Origin: Candidatus Pacearchaeota archaeon
Lineage (GTDB): Archaea > Nanobdellota > Nanobdellia > Pacearchaeales > GW2011-AR1
Direction of reading: 5' to 3'
NCBI GenBank assembly: GCA_016186425.1
Contig: JACPLR010000018.1
Location: forward strand, 1 to 32,000
DNA length: 32,000 nucleotides
The position numbers and the translations under genes were made by a program. Below the pieces are notes generated by a model, which did no database searches, had not been told where the DNA came from, and saw nothing but the letters and a program-made list of their open reading frames with translations. Below, in pieces: positions 10,759 through 30,004 of the stretch (position 1 is its first letter; every line of letters begins with the position of its first letter).

Positions 10759-10893
10759 CTTTTTATTTACTTTTATTCCGCTTAACTATTAATACTTTTT
10801 TAATACTTTATTTATACTAATATTAGTATTTAAATGTTATTATTGGCATGAATATGCCTTAATCCCAAGTTAATTAAAACCTCTTAATCCATA

Positions 10894-11151
10894 AAATATT
10901 AATATATCAAGCGAATAAATCATGTAAATTTTTCTCCTATTAAAAGGAAAATTTGATAAAGAAAATTATTACATTTAAAGGAGATGTCATAAGAAGAACC
11001 TTGGTTCTTTTTATAAAGGAAAGTTTGATAAATGGTTGCTGGATGCATAGAAACCCGCTGGAGGTTTTTATATTGGTTGCCCTTATTATTGCAGTATTTT
11101 CAAAACTATTCTGAAATCATACTATACCTTTGCCTAATTTAGATGAGAAAG
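10894..11151 (+). repeat. Intergenic palindromic element, array-bearing form
   Basis: 10894-11071 is identical to 26027-26204 except one base; right part matches other copies (GCAGTATTTTCAAAA...CTGAAATCATAC...CTTTGCCTAATTTA). Confidence 0.85.
10977..11014 (+). repeat. 38-bp hairpin unit, copy 1
   Basis: AAAGGAGATGTCATAAGAAGAACCTTGGTTCTTTTTAT, identical at 18630, 21031 and 26110. Confidence 0.95.
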
Positions 11152-11219
11152 TGTCTGATACTTCATTAATCATTAATTTCAATAATCTAATATTCTGTAA
11201 GTCACATACTTTAAACTAA

Positions 11220-13700: not shown

Positions 13701-13913
13701 TTTACCTCCTTTTATAGCATAATTTAGATTAATATATCTAAGTTTAAAAACTATTCGTTTATATAAAAATAGTTTTTAAAATACTATAAATATTACAGAT
13801 ATTTAGCTACCTAACCAATAAATAAAAAAATAGAGTTAATCAAAATGATGTGAACCCCTCTAGGTAGACACTTAGAATAGCTAATATACATTATTAATTT
13901 AAAACTAGTTTAA

Positions 13914-13960
13914 CAAGCGAATAAATTATGTAAAAGTATTGCAGTATTTTCAAAACATTT
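13914..13960. repeat. Intergenic palindromic element, possible empty/short form
   Basis: AAGCGAATAAATTATGTAAA joined directly to TATTGCAGTATTTTCAAAA; in the 10.9k and 26k copies the same flanks are separated by arrays. Confidence 0.6.
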
Positions 13961-13998
13961 AAAAGAAAAACTAATAAAGACAACTAATGTTTTCCTTT

Positions 13999-15237
13999 TT
14001 AAATTATCTCTCCAAAACCTATTAATCTCCAATGCCCCTTTATATTTCTGGCAATTCCTACATTATCTCCCTTGAACGGAACAACTGGAATATTCAACTC
14101 TAAATCCAAAATGCCCTCTTTAATTGTCTTTATTCTTCCGACACTTATTGAAGTATTAATGCTTAACATAAGCATTTCGCTTGGCTTGAAATCTTCAACA
14201 ACAAATTGCTCTTCCATTCCAAGAACCTGCTTAAAATGCTGGGCCCTAATTTTTATATTATATGATATTACTGGCAATTTATTATTCAATCCGGCAACAC
14301 AACCAGAAAGATTGTCTGCTTTGGTTAAAGTCATATCAAGCTCTGTTTCAATTGCCAAGCTTCCTCCAGGTCCTGCTGCACTAACTCTGTGATCTCCTCT
14401 TTGCAAAGAAACAATTTTTGTTTTAACAGTTTCATAAATTCTCTGATTTTTTTCAATAACATTTAATCCTGGCTTAATTTCAATTTCATCTCCCACTTTC
14501 AAAATTCCTTTCATCAAACTCCCACCTAAAACCCCTCCGTGCAATTCAGAAGCAGGAGTTCCTGGTTTGTTAATGTCAAAGCTTCTTGCAACAACAAAAA
14601 CAGGATCAGAATTAATTTCTCTCTTTGGTACTTCAATTTCAGCAAGATACTTATAAACTTTATCAATATTTATTTTCTGTTGTGCAGAAACTGGAATTAT
14701 TTCCGAGTTTTCAGCAATAGTGCCTTTAACAAATTCTTTTATTTCTTTATAATTTTTTATTGCTTGTTCTTTTGAAACAAGATCTATCTTGTTCTGGATA
14801 ATTGCAATCTTTTTAACATTTTTTGCTTGAAGGGCAACTAAATGCTCTCGTGTTTGTGGCTTAATTCCTTCATTTGCAGCCACAACAAGAAGCGCAACAT
14901 CAACTATTTCAGCTCCAGATAACATTGTTGCCATCAGCATCTCATGTCCTGGCACATCAACAAAAGTTATGTATCTATAAGGCTCGCCATTTTCAACCTC
15001 GTAGTTATTCCCAGACTTCCTTAAGATTATGTCAGAATAACCAAGTTTTATTGTAATTCCTCTTTTCAATTCTTCGGAATGTGTATCAGTAAACTTCCCG
15101 CTAAGCGCATAAAGAAGCGTTGTCTTGCCATGATCAATATGCCCCGCCATGCCGACATTTAATATCGGCAGTTTTGAAATATCAATACCGTTATTTGCTT
15201 TATTATCTTTATGATTATTTTTATTATCCTTTTCCAT
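13999..15237 (-). CDS. eif2g: Translation initiation factor aIF2 subunit gamma
   Basis: NVGMAGHIDHGKTT, RGITIKLGY, VDVPGHE, NKIDLV GTPase motifs and eIF2-gamma C-terminal domains. Confidence 0.97.
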   Translation of the reverse strand: MEKDNKNNHKDNKANNGIDISKLPILNVGMAGHIDHGKTTLLYALSGKFTDTHSEELKRGITIKLGYSDIILRKSGNNYEVENGEPYRYITFVDVPGHEMLMATMLSGAEIVDVALLVVAANEGIKPQTREHLVALQAKNVKKIAIIQNKIDLVSKEQAIKNYKEIKEFVKGTIAENSEIIPVSAQQKINIDKVYKYLAEIEVPKREINSDPVFVVARSFDINKPGTPASELHGGVLGGSLMKGILKVGDEIEIKPGLNVIEKNQRIYETVKTKIVSLQRGDHRVSAAGPGGSLAIETELDMTLTKADNLSGCVAGLNNKLPVISYNIKIRAQHFKQVLGMEEQFVVEDFKPSEMLMLSINTSISVGRIKTIKEGILDLELNIPVVPFKGDNVGIARNIKGHWRLIGFGEII

Positions 15238-16950: not shown

Positions 16951-17023
16951 TAAAAATCACGTAAAATCATTGCAATACTTTTCTGAAATCATACCTCATC
17001 TTTACCTAACCTAAATGAGTAAG
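16951..17023. repeat. Intergenic palindromic element, short form
   Basis: ATCACGTAAAATCATTGCAATACTTTTCTGAAATCATACCTCATCTTTACCTAACCTAAATGAGTAAG. Confidence 0.55.
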
Positions 17024-17134
17024 CTAAAAATATTTTATTAATCAATTAAACTTACCTAATTCATTGCATAAACCATGTAAAATTACTAAGATAGTCGCAA
17101 ATTAATAAGTAACTAATATTATCTCTGATAAACT

Positions 17135-18556: not shown

Positions 18557-18708
18557 TGCCCCCACCGGGATTCGAACCCGGGTCTAAGCCTTTCTTCTTT
18601 TTTCCATTATAGGGAAATGTCCTCTCTCAAAAGGAGATGTCATAAGAAGAACCTTGGTTCTTTTTATCAACGAAAGGGCTTGATGCTTGGCCTCTACACC
18701 ATAGGGGC
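18557..18708 (-). tRNA. tRNA-Glu(TTC) with ~79-nt intron at 37/38 (about 18592-18670)
   Basis: Acceptor GCCCCTA/TGGGGGC, anticodon stem AAGCC/GGCTT with loop CTTTCG|A, T-arm CCGGG-TTCGAAT-CCCGG. Confidence 0.92.
18630..18667 (+). repeat. 38-bp hairpin unit inside the tRNA-Glu intron (opposite strand to tRNA)
   Basis: AAAGGAGATGTCATAAGAAGAACCTTGGTTCTTTTTAT, exact match to intergenic copies. Confidence 0.95.
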
Positions 18709-19250: not shown

Positions 19251-19436
19251 TTAAAAGGAGAGTTCGTAAAGGGAACCATTGCTATTAAAAGGAAAGTTTG
19301 ATAAAGAAAACCTTTGGCACTTAAAAGGAAAGTTTGATAAAGAAAACCTTTGGCACTTAAAAGGAAAGTTTGATAAAGAAAACCATTGGTTGTCTTTATA
19401 GGAGATGTCATAAGAAGAACCATTGGTTCTTTTTAT
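19251..19436 (+). repeat. Tandem array of 5 hairpin units abutting the 3' end of tRNA-Ile
   Basis: Core unit TTAAAAGGAAAGTTTGATAAAGAAAACCTTTGGCAC (period 36), then a full-hairpin unit ending GGTTGTCTTTAT and a variant of the 38-bp unit. Confidence 0.9.
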
Positions 19437-19439
19437 AAA

Positions 19440-19575
19440 TGAGCCTGCGCGGATTTGAACCGCGGACCCCCGCCTCTCTTAGATTTTCTTTTCTATGAAA
19501 GGAGCATTCCAGTGTTAACACGCTGAAACACACTCATATAAGAGCGGTGCTCTAACCAGGCTGAGCTACAGGCTC
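19440..19575 (-). tRNA. tRNA-Ile(TAT) with ~61-nt intron at 37/38 (about 19476-19536)
   Basis: Acceptor GAGCCTG/CAGGCTC, D-arm GCTCAGCCTGGTTAGAGC, anticodon stem CCGCT/GGCGG with loop CTTATA, T-arm CGCGG-TTCAAAT-CCGCG. Confidence 0.88.
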
Positions 19576-20971: not shown

Positions 20972-21135
20972 ATCATGCTAAATTTTTCCTATTAAAAGGA
21001 ATGTTTGATAAAGAAAAACATTGGCACTTAAAAGGAGATGTCATAAGAAGAACCTTGGTTCTTTTTATTATTTACTATTGTAAGGATTCATAATATATTT
21101 TAAAAATAATGTAATATCTTTGCCTTATTTACTAG
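20972..21135 (+). repeat. Intergenic palindromic element, array-bearing form
   Basis: TCATGCTAAATTTTTCCTATTAAAAGGAATGTTTGATAAAG..., 38-bp unit at 21031-21068, terminal AATATCTTTGCCTTATTTA. Confidence 0.8.
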
Positions 21136-25942: not shown

Positions 25943-26026
25943 TCTCAGTTTAAAATTAATAACTATTTATTATTTTCCAAAAAACAACAACAGGCCATAT
26001 AAAAAAGTTAAGACTATTTAATCAAT

Positions 26027-26373
26027 AAATATTAATATATCAAGCGAATAAATCATGTAAATTTTTCTCCTATTAAAAGGAAAATTTGATAAAGAAAATT
26101 ATTACATTTAAAGGAGATGTCATAAGAAGAACCTTGGTTCTTTTTATAAAGGAAAGTTTGATAAGTGGTTGCTGGATGCATAGAAACCCGCTGGAGGTTT
26201 TTATTTTCATAAAGAAAACCATTGGCATCTAAAAGGAAGGGTTGATAAGGGTAAACCATTGGCATCTAAAAGGAAGGGTTGATAAGGGTAAACCATTGGT
26301 TGCCCTTATTATTGCAGTATTTTCAAAATATTTCTGAAATCATACAATATCCTTGCCTTATTTTAATGTGAAA
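26027..26373 (+). repeat. Intergenic palindromic element, longest array-bearing form
   Basis: Shares 178 bp with 10894-11071, then extra 37-bp units AAAAGGAAGGGTTGATAAGGGTAAACCATTGGCATCT and terminal GGTTGCCCTTATT. Confidence 0.88.
26110..26147 (+). repeat. 38-bp hairpin unit, copy 4
   Basis: Exact match to 10977, 18630 and 21031 copies. Confidence 0.95.
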
Positions 26374-26511
26374 GTTGCTTAAATCTTATCAGTTAATCTA
26401 AAGAGATTATTATCCACTTTAAAGAGACTTCACTAAATTTAAAAGCAGGGGAAAGATAATAATTAATTTTTTCCCATTGGAAAAACTTAAATAAAAGAGA
26501 ATATTGATAAA

Positions 26512-27597
26512 ATGATAAAAAAGGGGGCGGGAATGGATCAGAAAAAAGAGATGCAGACAACTATAATTGAAATAAAGAATAATCAGCAGGCTACAAAAGA
26601 GGAATTTCTCAGTATATTAAGGCTTGTTGCTCCAGGAACAAATTTAAGAGCAGCACTTAACGGAATTGTTGAGGCAAAAAAGGGCGGCTTAATGATTGTT
26701 GAAAATGAAATTGTGCATCAAGTTCTGGATGGAGGATTTAAAGTTAACTGCAGGTTCACTCCTCAAAGGCTTATAGAGCTTGCAAAAATGGACGGGGCAA
26801 TAGTTCTATCAAATGATATGAAAAGAATAACTTATGCAAATGTAACTCTTGCTCCAGACAGCAGAATACCAACCAAAGAAACCGGAACTCGTCACAAAGC
26901 AGCTGAAAGAACTGCAAAAATGACAGGAACACTTGCAATAGCTGTTTCTGAAAGAAAAAACGAGATAAGCCTCTACTATAAGGACATCAAATACCATGTA
27001 AGAAGCACTGCAGAAATATTACGAAGAGCTACTGAAACACTTCAGATACTTGAAAAGCAAAGAGAATTATTTGATATTAATCTGACGAAGCTCAACCAAA
27101 TGGAGTTAAATAATGACCTAAGCTTAAGGCAGGCGTGTAAGGTAATACAAAGAGGGAAAGCAATGGAAAAAATTCTTGAATCCCAGGAAAAAACGCTGAT
27201 AGAGCTTGGAAACGAAGCAATACCATTGAAATTAAGAATTAAGGAACTAATGAAAGATGTTGAAAGAGAAATAGATTTTGTAATTAAAGAATACACAAAG
27301 CTTAATTTAAAAAAATCAGAAAATATTCTTGAAAGCCTGTCTTACGAAGAGCTTTTGGATACAGAAAATATAATGATTGCCCTGGCCCATAAAGAAGAGG
27401 CGGGTCTTGACTCGATAAAGGGCTGGAGATTGCTGTCAAAAACAAGTTTGGAAGAAAAAGATATAGCAAATCTAGTATCAAAATTCCAGAGTTTAAATAA
27501 TATAATTAACGCAGAGTTGCATGAACATAAACAAATCCTTGGTGATGAAAAAGCAGGAACATTTGCCAAAGAACTTCAGAGATTCAGGAATTTGTAA
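26512..27597 (+). CDS. disA: DisA-type diadenylate cyclase (c-di-AMP synthase) with linker and C-terminal HhH-like region
   Basis: LRLVAPGTNLRAALNGI, LAKMDGAIVLSNDMKRITYANV, SRIPTKETGTRHKAAERTAKMTG; C-terminal GWRLLSKTSLEEKDIANLVSKFQSLNNII...ELQRF as in DisA. Confidence 0.92.
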   Translation: MIKKGAGMDQKKEMQTTIIEIKNNQQATKEEFLSILRLVAPGTNLRAALNGIVEAKKGGLMIVENEIVHQVLDGGFKVNCRFTPQRLIELAKMDGAIVLSNDMKRITYANVTLAPDSRIPTKETGTRHKAAERTAKMTGTLAIAVSERKNEISLYYKDIKYHVRSTAEILRRATETLQILEKQRELFDINLTKLNQMELNNDLSLRQACKVIQRGKAMEKILESQEKTLIELGNEAIPLKLRIKELMKDVEREIDFVIKEYTKLNLKKSENILESLSYEELLDTENIMIALAHKEEAGLDSIKGWRLLSKTSLEEKDIANLVSKFQSLNNIINAELHEHKQILGDEKAGTFAKELQRFRNL

Positions 27598-27837: not shown

Positions 27838-28046
27838 AATCCAGCTTAAAAATTATCTAAAGATATTGCAGTAATTTAAAAATCATTTAAAGGAGGGGTT
27901 GATAAGGGTGAACCTTTAAATCATTTTTAAAAATCATTTAAAGGAGGGGTTGATAAGGGTGAACCTTTAAATCATTTATGATTTTTAAATCCATTAGGAT
28001 TTTGGTGCCCTTTATACTATATTCTTGCCTAACTTTTATGAGAAAG
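27838..28046 (+). repeat. Intergenic palindromic element, 51-bp unit form
   Basis: Two 51-bp units TTTAAAGGAGGGGTTGATAAGGGTGAACCTTTAAATCATTTTTAAAAATCA, terminal TATTCTTGCCTAACTTTTATGAGAAAG. Confidence 0.75.
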
Positions 28047-28880: not shown

Positions 28881-29090
28881 AATCGGGCATAAATTTTCCT
28901 TTAAAAAGGAAAGTTTGATAAAGAAAACCTTGGTTCATCTAAAAGGAAAGTTTGATAAAGAAAACCTTGGTTCATCTAAAAGGAAAGTTTGATAAAGAAA
29001 ACCATTGGTTGTCTTTATTATTTATTATATATTTTCAAAAAGTTCTTAAATCTCCACAATATCTTTCCCTATCTTATATGGGTAAATTTC
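28881..29090 (+). repeat. Intergenic palindromic element, array-bearing form (3 units)
   Basis: Three AAAAGGAAAGTTTGATAAAGAAAACC units at 37-bp spacing (28902-29019), last ends with full hairpin ATTGGTTGTCTTTATT; right end CAATATCTTTCCCTATCTTATATGGGTAAA. Confidence 0.85.
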
Positions 29091-29188: not shown

Positions 29189-30004
29189 ATGGAAAGGAGG
29201 GAATTTTTAATTTTTAGCGCTTTATCTTTAGGCATTCCTTTATTTTCCAATGCAGATGAATCTATTGAACCAAGTGAACTAACATTAAAACAAAAAATAA
29301 TTGTCAATCTTCCAACTTACTCTCTAAAATTATATGAAGATAATGAATTAAAAGAAGAATATCCGTGCAGAATAGGAAAACCAAGAACTCCTACACTTAT
29401 TGGAAAAGGCAAGATAATAGAAAAAAAACCGCAAGTAATTTTTAGGTATCTTTCAGGAGAAAGAAAAGGAAGAGTAATAAGATATAGCTATTTAGATCCT
29501 GAGAAAAGAACAATAAAAATGCCATATAGGGATATGAGGGGCCTAGGTTTTGAGATAAATGGAATAATGAATGGAGCTGTGATACATTCAACAACAGATT
29601 ACTGGACAATAGGAACTGCAAGGTCTCATGGCTGTATAGGCGTCAAAATCGATGACATGTTAAAGCTATACGAAGCAGTTCATGATGGCCCTCTTCCTGA
29701 ATTTGAAACTACTTATCAAACATTATTTTTTGACAAAGAAAAAGGAGATTTAACAATTTGGTGCGATATTTACAATAAAGGAACAAATAATGCAAAATCC
29801 CTGGTAGAAATATTAAATGAAAATTTAGCTAATGCAGAAATAAAAAATCATGAAAAAATCAGTGAAAAACTAAAAGAAATAGATAAACAGCTAAAGGCAG
29901 GCAATAGCGAGATACAAAAAATCATTGATCAAGGAAAAGATCCAAAAGATATCTTAAATAAACTGCATACAAGCTTTCCATTAGAAAAATTATTATCAGA
30001 GTAA
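29189..30004 (+). CDS. L,D-transpeptidase (YkuD) family protein with Tat-like signal
   Basis: GAVIHSTTDYWTIGTARSHGCIGVKIDDMLKLYE catalytic His/Cys motif; N-terminal MERREFLIFSALSLG. Confidence 0.9.
   Translation: MERREFLIFSALSLGIPLFSNADESIEPSELTLKQKIIVNLPTYSLKLYEDNELKEEYPCRIGKPRTPTLIGKGKIIEKKPQVIFRYLSGERKGRVIRYSYLDPEKRTIKMPYRDMRGLGFEINGIMNGAVIHSTTDYWTIGTARSHGCIGVKIDDMLKLYEAVHDGPLPEFETTYQTLFFDKEKGDLTIWCDIYNKGTNNAKSLVEILNENLANAEIKNHEKISEKLKEIDKQLKAGNSEIQKIIDQGKDPKDILNKLHTSFPLEKLLSE

Follow-up and report, generated by a model that had tools for sequence, protein, structure and literature searches.

The tandem hairpin arrays in this archaeal DNA are part of a dispersed family of palindromic units of ~40 nt, which is probably a very small mobile element of Pacearchaeota-type archaea, with new copies joining at the end that faces the gene. 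The window, a 32,000-nt stretch, is one contig (C6) of the Pacearchaeota-type genome G000 (868,632 bp, 88% complete, 29 contigs). In each unit, a tract that varies by type separates an AAAAGG box from a covarying 12-bp hairpin, with TTTAT at the hairpin end; in type A the order is AAAAGG, tract, ATAAAGAAAACC, loop and GGTTGTCTTTAT. We distinguished about ten types, which vary in both tract and stem, with stem arms ATAAGAAGAACC/GGTTCTTTTTAT in type B, ATAAAGAGAACC/GGTTCTTTTTAT in type C, ATAAGGGTAAACC/GGTTGCCCTTAT in type D, ATAAAAGAAACC/GGTGTCTTTTAT in type E and ATAGAAGAAACC/GGTGTCTTCTAT in type H. Across 42 distinct complete units, 94.2% of stem cells are paired and 38 cells show changes on both sides, compared with 15.4 in shuffles, and pairing falls to 48–66% once the partner is slid. 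On the strand shown the wobble pairs read G-U, and on the opposite one they would be A-C, indicating that the former is the structured strand. A second hairpin around the AAAAGG box is not claimed, because permuted left flanks pair nearly as well (3.78 bp vs 3.92 bp observed, with 8 of 300 permutations reaching or exceeding the observed value). In relatives, a common 5′ domain, ATCAGNCNTGANCC, lies ~20 nt upstream of the AAAGG box (loci L108, L110, L111, L182, L185–L187, L191–L193, L197, L199 and L223), which suggests a full element of ~60 nt in those genomes. Rfam gave no family match at the units.

Within the window, TRF confirmed the tandem periods of 36, 37 and 51 bp that a first-pass annotation had reported, at 19,251–19,389 (36 bp), 26,216–26,299 and 28,904–29,010 (37 bp), and 27,875–27,977 (51 bp). 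The internal unit endings it listed (GGCACTT, GGCATCT or GGTTCATCT) and the terminal right arms are all present, the arrays being closed by GGTTGCCCTTAT (end 26,309) or GGTTGTCTTTAT (ends 29,018 and 19,399); as a control for chance, the reversed pattern gave 0 matches against 54 and 49 for the real one. About six units, representing several types, make up a compound at 26,070–26,308. On the plus strand it begins with a right-truncated, diverged type-A unit (26,076–26,109, three mismatches to type A), followed by a complete type-B unit (26,110–26,147), a longer variant ending in GGTTTTTAT with the hairpin ATAGAAACC/GGTTTTTAT (26,148–26,204), a partial type-A remnant with a right-truncated type-D unit in a 37-bp period (26,205–26,267), and a terminal type-D unit with the complete right arm GGTTGCCCTTAT (26,268–26,309). 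A sister copy at 10,943–11,086 (plus strand, 94% identity over 203 nt) holds an A remnant, a complete B unit (10,977–11,014), the longer variant (11,015–11,071) and an orphan D right arm, and lacks the type-D array; arrays have thus changed in length since the two copies separated.

The other units listed for the window range from single copies to arrays, and all but one of those given here lie on the plus strand. A complete type-B unit at 18,629–18,667 sits in the intron of a minus-strand tRNA (18,557–18,708), antisense and against the 5′ exon. At 19,253–19,399, a diverged truncated unit, two truncated type-A units and a complete type-A unit form an array with a 36-bp period, which is followed by a complete type-B unit (19,401–19,436) ending 3 nt from the 3′ end of another minus-strand tRNA (19,440–19,575). 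Both of these tRNAs have introns; a default ARAGORN scan missed them and Rfam detected them. A truncated type-A-like unit precedes a complete type-B unit at 20,995–21,068, and three type-A units with a 37-bp period occupy 28,905–29,018, where only the last is complete. The 51-bp array at 27.9 kb had been grouped with the rest and is in fact different: two 51-bp copies holding a type-D-like left half are followed by a displaced right-arm-like sequence (27,875–28,015 in all), and this sole candidate right arm, GGTGCCCTTTAT, lies at 28,004–28,015, ~40 bp downstream. The one minus-strand copy, at 13,966–14,003, is decayed, with a partly deleted left arm. The window, though archaeal, also encodes two further proteins of note, a DisA-type diadenylate cyclase (26,512–27,597) and a YkuD L,D-transpeptidase-like protein (29,189–30,004).

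The arrays had initially been read as the expanded side arm of one larger element. Such an element does exist as a second, larger dispersed repeat (AATAAATCATG..., a side hairpin, ...TATTGCAGTATTTTCAAAA...; window positions 10,872–11,172, 13,873–13,960, 16,970–17,044 and 26,005–26,395, among others) and is a frequent host of units. Its side hairpin reads AAATTTTTCACATAGAAAAATTT in unit-free copies, and unit-bearing copies retain the left arm and lack the right arm. The loop of this side hairpin is, however, just one setting of the unit family, which is dispersed, comprises about ten types often present as single copies, and also occurs within tRNA introns, next to tRNA ends and by start and stop codons.

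The same early reading held that only the last unit of an array carries a complete right arm, and this stands in one direction only. In clusters of at least two units from the examined stretches of G000 and its same-genus relative G001, which were picked around units and are therefore a non-random genome sample, right-truncated units are non-terminal in 60 of 61 cases and terminal units are complete in 48 of 49 (Fisher p = 7e-16). A complete unit is not always terminal, however: 27 complete units are non-terminal, including the type-A unit at 19.25 kb, which comes before a complete type-B unit whose end is at 19,436, and the type-B unit at 26,110–26,147 that precedes other units of its compound. 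The proposal that arrays grow from one end is supported, as the polarity recurs in G001 and in Pacearchaeota CG1_02_32_21 (L205), where four identical units follow one another at 35 bp with a right arm on the last only, and two arrays present in both G000 and G001 have different right ends. Within clusters, truncated units diverge more than complete ones (0.95 vs 0.76 edits, p = 0.004), a weak sign of age order; the difference across all units is not significant (p = 0.23). The clusters run head-to-tail rather than alternating, and their linkers are a few nucleotides long and themselves recurrent, which bears out the view of a noncoding repeat without the unique spacers of a CRISPR array. All of these genomes are drafts assembled from metagenomes, and the tandem copy number could be affected by assembly. 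An assembly artefact as the source of the family is very improbable and largely refuted, although exact copy numbers may be wrong, as the same anatomy and polarity appear in independently assembled genomes.

The units are positioned with respect to genes by one end only. Among the clusters of G000 and G001, with intron copies left out and genes called by simple ORF rules and ARAGORN (so that some start codons are uncertain), 49 of 148 (33%) have the TTTAT end of the hairpin within −6 to +3 nt of a gene edge, here a start or stop codon or either end of a tRNA. The opposite unit end lies as close in 2 of 148 (1.4%; p = 1.4e-14) and random intergenic points in 100 of 3,780 (p = 1.5e-35). Start codons lie 0–2 nt from the unit end, or 7–8 nt where TTTTTATAATG or TTTTTATATG follows, and stop codons cluster at −4, −1 and +2 to +3. 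Copies that precede a start codon or a tRNA 5′ end are in sense, and those that follow a stop codon, a tRNA 3′ end or a tRNA 5′ exon are antisense; all nine tRNA-intron copies are antisense and against the 5′ exon, that is, at the 5′ splice site. Many further copies lie in intergenic repeats, away from gene edges. Among the best-match loci of other genera, the same rule holds at start and stop codons, at tRNA 5′ ends (−1 to +1; L107, L111, L112, L117, L127, L182, L183, L185, L186, L197 and L198) and at tRNA 3′ ends (L115, L119, L193 and L200). It is also seen in exact matches from a genome collection, some of these being the same genomes. In G020, a unit lies a few nucleotides past the 3′ end of a probable 16S rRNA gene (L106, 1503–1541).

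A TATA-like hexamer is found at −30 to −22 from the unit 5′ end in 23 of 43 sense, 12 of 37 antisense and 11 of 74 other copies, the sense–antisense difference not being significant by itself (p = 0.07). Since the box lies just upstream of sense copies, these appear to fill the interval between the presumed transcription start and the gene, and would thereby give a leaderless gene a hairpin leader. The upstream position of the box also disfavours the unit as a promoter, and a function as terminator alone fits neither the sense copies before start codons nor the intron copies. One apparent in-frame insertion within an ORF (L086:5952–5992) was set aside when its G001 orthologue suggested a gene start rather than an interior. 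At another site (L090, 2897–2935; L166, 4581–4621), the downstream gene has no nearby ATG in either genome; in each of them an in-frame TTG falls within the unit loop region, and the unit might thus provide the start codon. Orientation is also biased at a larger scale in G000, where 60 of 77 clusters lie on the negative-GC-skew strand (p = 9e-7) and individual contigs favour one orientation (C21 9:0, C29 7:0, C6 7:0, C2 0:5; p = 9e-5), with gene orientation a possible confounder; the trend in G001 (39 of 66) is not significant.

A covariance model finds 128 copies in G000 and ~114 in one genome of its genus, against 16, 12, 8, 5 and 2 in others of the genus. At E ≤ 0.001, units are matched in 70 of 200 genomes across the order, representing 45 of 104 genera, and most carriers have few copies; these counts are minimum values, given the stricter filters of large covariance-model searches, and the model misaligns shorter variants of distant relatives. 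Exact type-A matches in a collection of genomes from 84,980 species come only from records named Pacearchaeota or Nanoarchaeota, and type A is identical in G000, G001 and G003, though G000 and G001 are only ~83% identical. IMG/VR viral contigs contain no exact match to type A or B.

For 34 sites, the flanks in G000 could be matched with those in G001. Some orthologous sites are occupied in one genome and empty in the other, among them sites in a tRNA intron (L069:12324), at the junction of overlapping genes (L073:2601) and at gene ends (L067:2479; G001 L163:5559 and L166), an insertion polymorphism between related genomes. Read by eye, 12 sites with units in both genomes have clearly different terminal types in 10 cases (B/E at L079:7188, B/A′ at L064:2272, A/C at L096:5168, A/F at L061:2962, and others), a single-base difference (A/A′) in one, and the same type in one. 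At L062:2652 the inner B unit is common to both genomes and the terminal units differ, consistent with growth at the right end; at L068:2301 both genomes have an F unit and G001 alone has a further unit after it, which also fits such growth but could equally reflect loss in G000. At L064:4225, G001 has the palindrome GTTTAGCTAAAC where G000 has GTTTAG and then a unit. The closest genome, at ~17% divergence, is too distant for target duplications to be read.

Taken together, the dispersed family, the stem covariation, the array polarity, the flush placement of one end, the occupied and empty orthologous sites and the differences in type lead us to favor a mobile element. Mobility is further supported by the contrast between 128 and ~114 copies in two genomes and 2–16 in others of the genus, and by the patchy presence in the order; we infer movement of the units rather than conversion or retention by selection. 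Against this reading stand the lack of a linked enzyme, the 27 complete non-terminal units, the weak age-order signal and the non-significant orientation bias in G001. In the simplest account, the right (TTTAT) end of a mobile hairpin would attach exactly at a gene or RNA edge, and other copies would enter the loop of a hairpin already in place, which then lacks its right arm. A new unit landing on an old one would take over the right end and leave the old one truncated in its loop, and repeated landings would yield head-to-tail arrays with a single complete right arm and the newest unit rightmost. Insertion with replacement of the right arm fits the polarity, the side-hairpin copies, the turnover of types and the gene-proximal growth, although the entry into the loop, the loss of the right arm and the order of events are reconstructed from the present arrangement.

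Selection may explain part of the edge placement, as a leaderless gene would tolerate an insertion between promoter and gene only at the start itself. It poorly explains why there is a single orientation and why placement is no less exact at stop codons and tRNA 3′ ends, which makes an RNA-primed or RNA-end-guided process a real possibility. We tentatively raise a more specific version, which we hold to be a good deal less probable than mobility as such: an element of 40–60 nt would be inserted precisely at mature RNA ends (a transcription start coinciding with the start codon or tRNA 5′ end, the tRNA 3′ end, the 5′ splice site or the stop codon), the same end of the hairpin facing inward every time, and arrays would be a directional record. 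If true, such insertion, with each new unit displacing the previous right arm, would be unlike known prokaryotic small repeats.

Slightly less plausible, and in our view unlikely, is that the hairpin is a functional RNA boundary element which selection retains as a leader on the 5′ side or a trailer on the 3′ side (a processing site, stabiliser or terminator), with arrays and type changes arising by drift or conversion. The exact edge placement with the hairpin base always on the gene side, the covariation with G-U pairs on one strand and the several sites common to G000 and G001 would all suit such a role. However, the units are patchy, at different genes in different genera and few per genome, some orthologous sites lack them, and many copies lie in intergenic repeats and not at gene edges. 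Replication slippage with gene conversion between dispersed copies, in the absence of any transposition, is improbable: it would suit the perfect head-to-tail copies, the sister loci with different array lengths and the types shared across loci, but it does not make new copies at flush gene edges or account for occupied and empty orthologous sites, and types that are only partly similar over 40 nt would be poor substrates for conversion.

Mobilization in trans of a REP-like element by a Y1 (HUH) single-strand transposase is a little more doubtful still. The hairpin anatomy, the extragenic location, the more than 100 copies and the orientation bias of G000 by contig and GC skew would be expected of such an element, and G000 and G001 each carry one Y1 gene. 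However, the G000 gene belongs to an IS200-like element whose hairpin ends are its own and unrelated to the units, none of which lies nearby, none of the Y1 loci examined in G000, G001 and other genomes contains units, G009 and G039 have Y1 genes yet no units, and the arrays are head-to-tail where alternation would be expected. More broadly, searches for Y1 transposases and reverse transcriptases in 20 relatives returned no candidate linked to the units. The reverse transcriptase was discounted as a mobilizer; it is unlinked to units and, because a target-like gene adjoins it, was judged to belong to a diversity-generating retroelement. This probable retroelement lies on G000 contig C19 at ~42.5–45.9 kb (L172, L178), with the IS200-like Y1 element nearby.

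Small palindromic repeats are best known from bacteria, and RAYT enzymes are thought to mobilize some of them. REPs are short imperfect palindromes with more than 100 copies per genome, mostly extragenic, with covarying stems and types that mix in clusters; within BIMEs successive REPs alternate in orientation, and rayt genes have REPs on both sides (PMC2817692). The unit resembles them as an abundant imperfect palindrome (128 copies, a covarying 12-bp stem, intergenic or in introns), but differs in its head-to-tail arrays with a polar right arm, in the lack of units at any Y1 gene examined and in having one end flush with gene edges. Rickettsia palindromic elements are likewise dispersed palindromic repeats, of 100–150 bp, notable for in-frame insertion inside ORFs, with different groups reported near one another at orthologous genes (PMC3767692); the unit, by contrast, is ~40 nt long and sits at gene edges rather than in ORF interiors, with no in-frame insertion established. 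Correia repeat enclosed elements of Neisseria are small hairpin-forming repeats near genes, with evidence of mobility between strains; they have inverted-repeat ends, often insert at TA, can bring promoters, and in some cases lie within the transcript between promoter and gene (PMC2649163). The unit differs from them as a single hairpin with a one-sided edge rule and a TATA-like box upstream of it.

Two further comparisons are archaeal. The mobile C/D box sRNAs of Nanoarchaeum equitans, also a reduced archaeal genome, occur next to tRNAs, within an intron of a tRNA and on the flanks of split genes (PMC3491384), whereas our units form a single long hairpin and their type consensus sequences contain no recognisable C (RUGAUGA) or D (CUGA) boxes. 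In Caldiarchaeum, tRNA intron gain has been proposed to proceed through integration of a mobile element, with a 1.8-kb recombinase-coding element implicated (PMC3293823); here, it is a 40-nt hairpin that lies inside introns, against the 5′ exon.

We found no account of this unit family in the open-access literature, and its spread, one-directional arrays and edge placement point to a kind of very small mobile element without an earlier description. A large, covarying and apparently recently active family in reduced archaea would be a new system for studying how such elements move, and the exact edge placement is a strong, testable constraint on the mechanism. Polar arrays, together with the turnover of types at fixed sites, could make the order of insertion readable from sequence, and the family may bear on the gain of tRNA introns and 5′ leaders.
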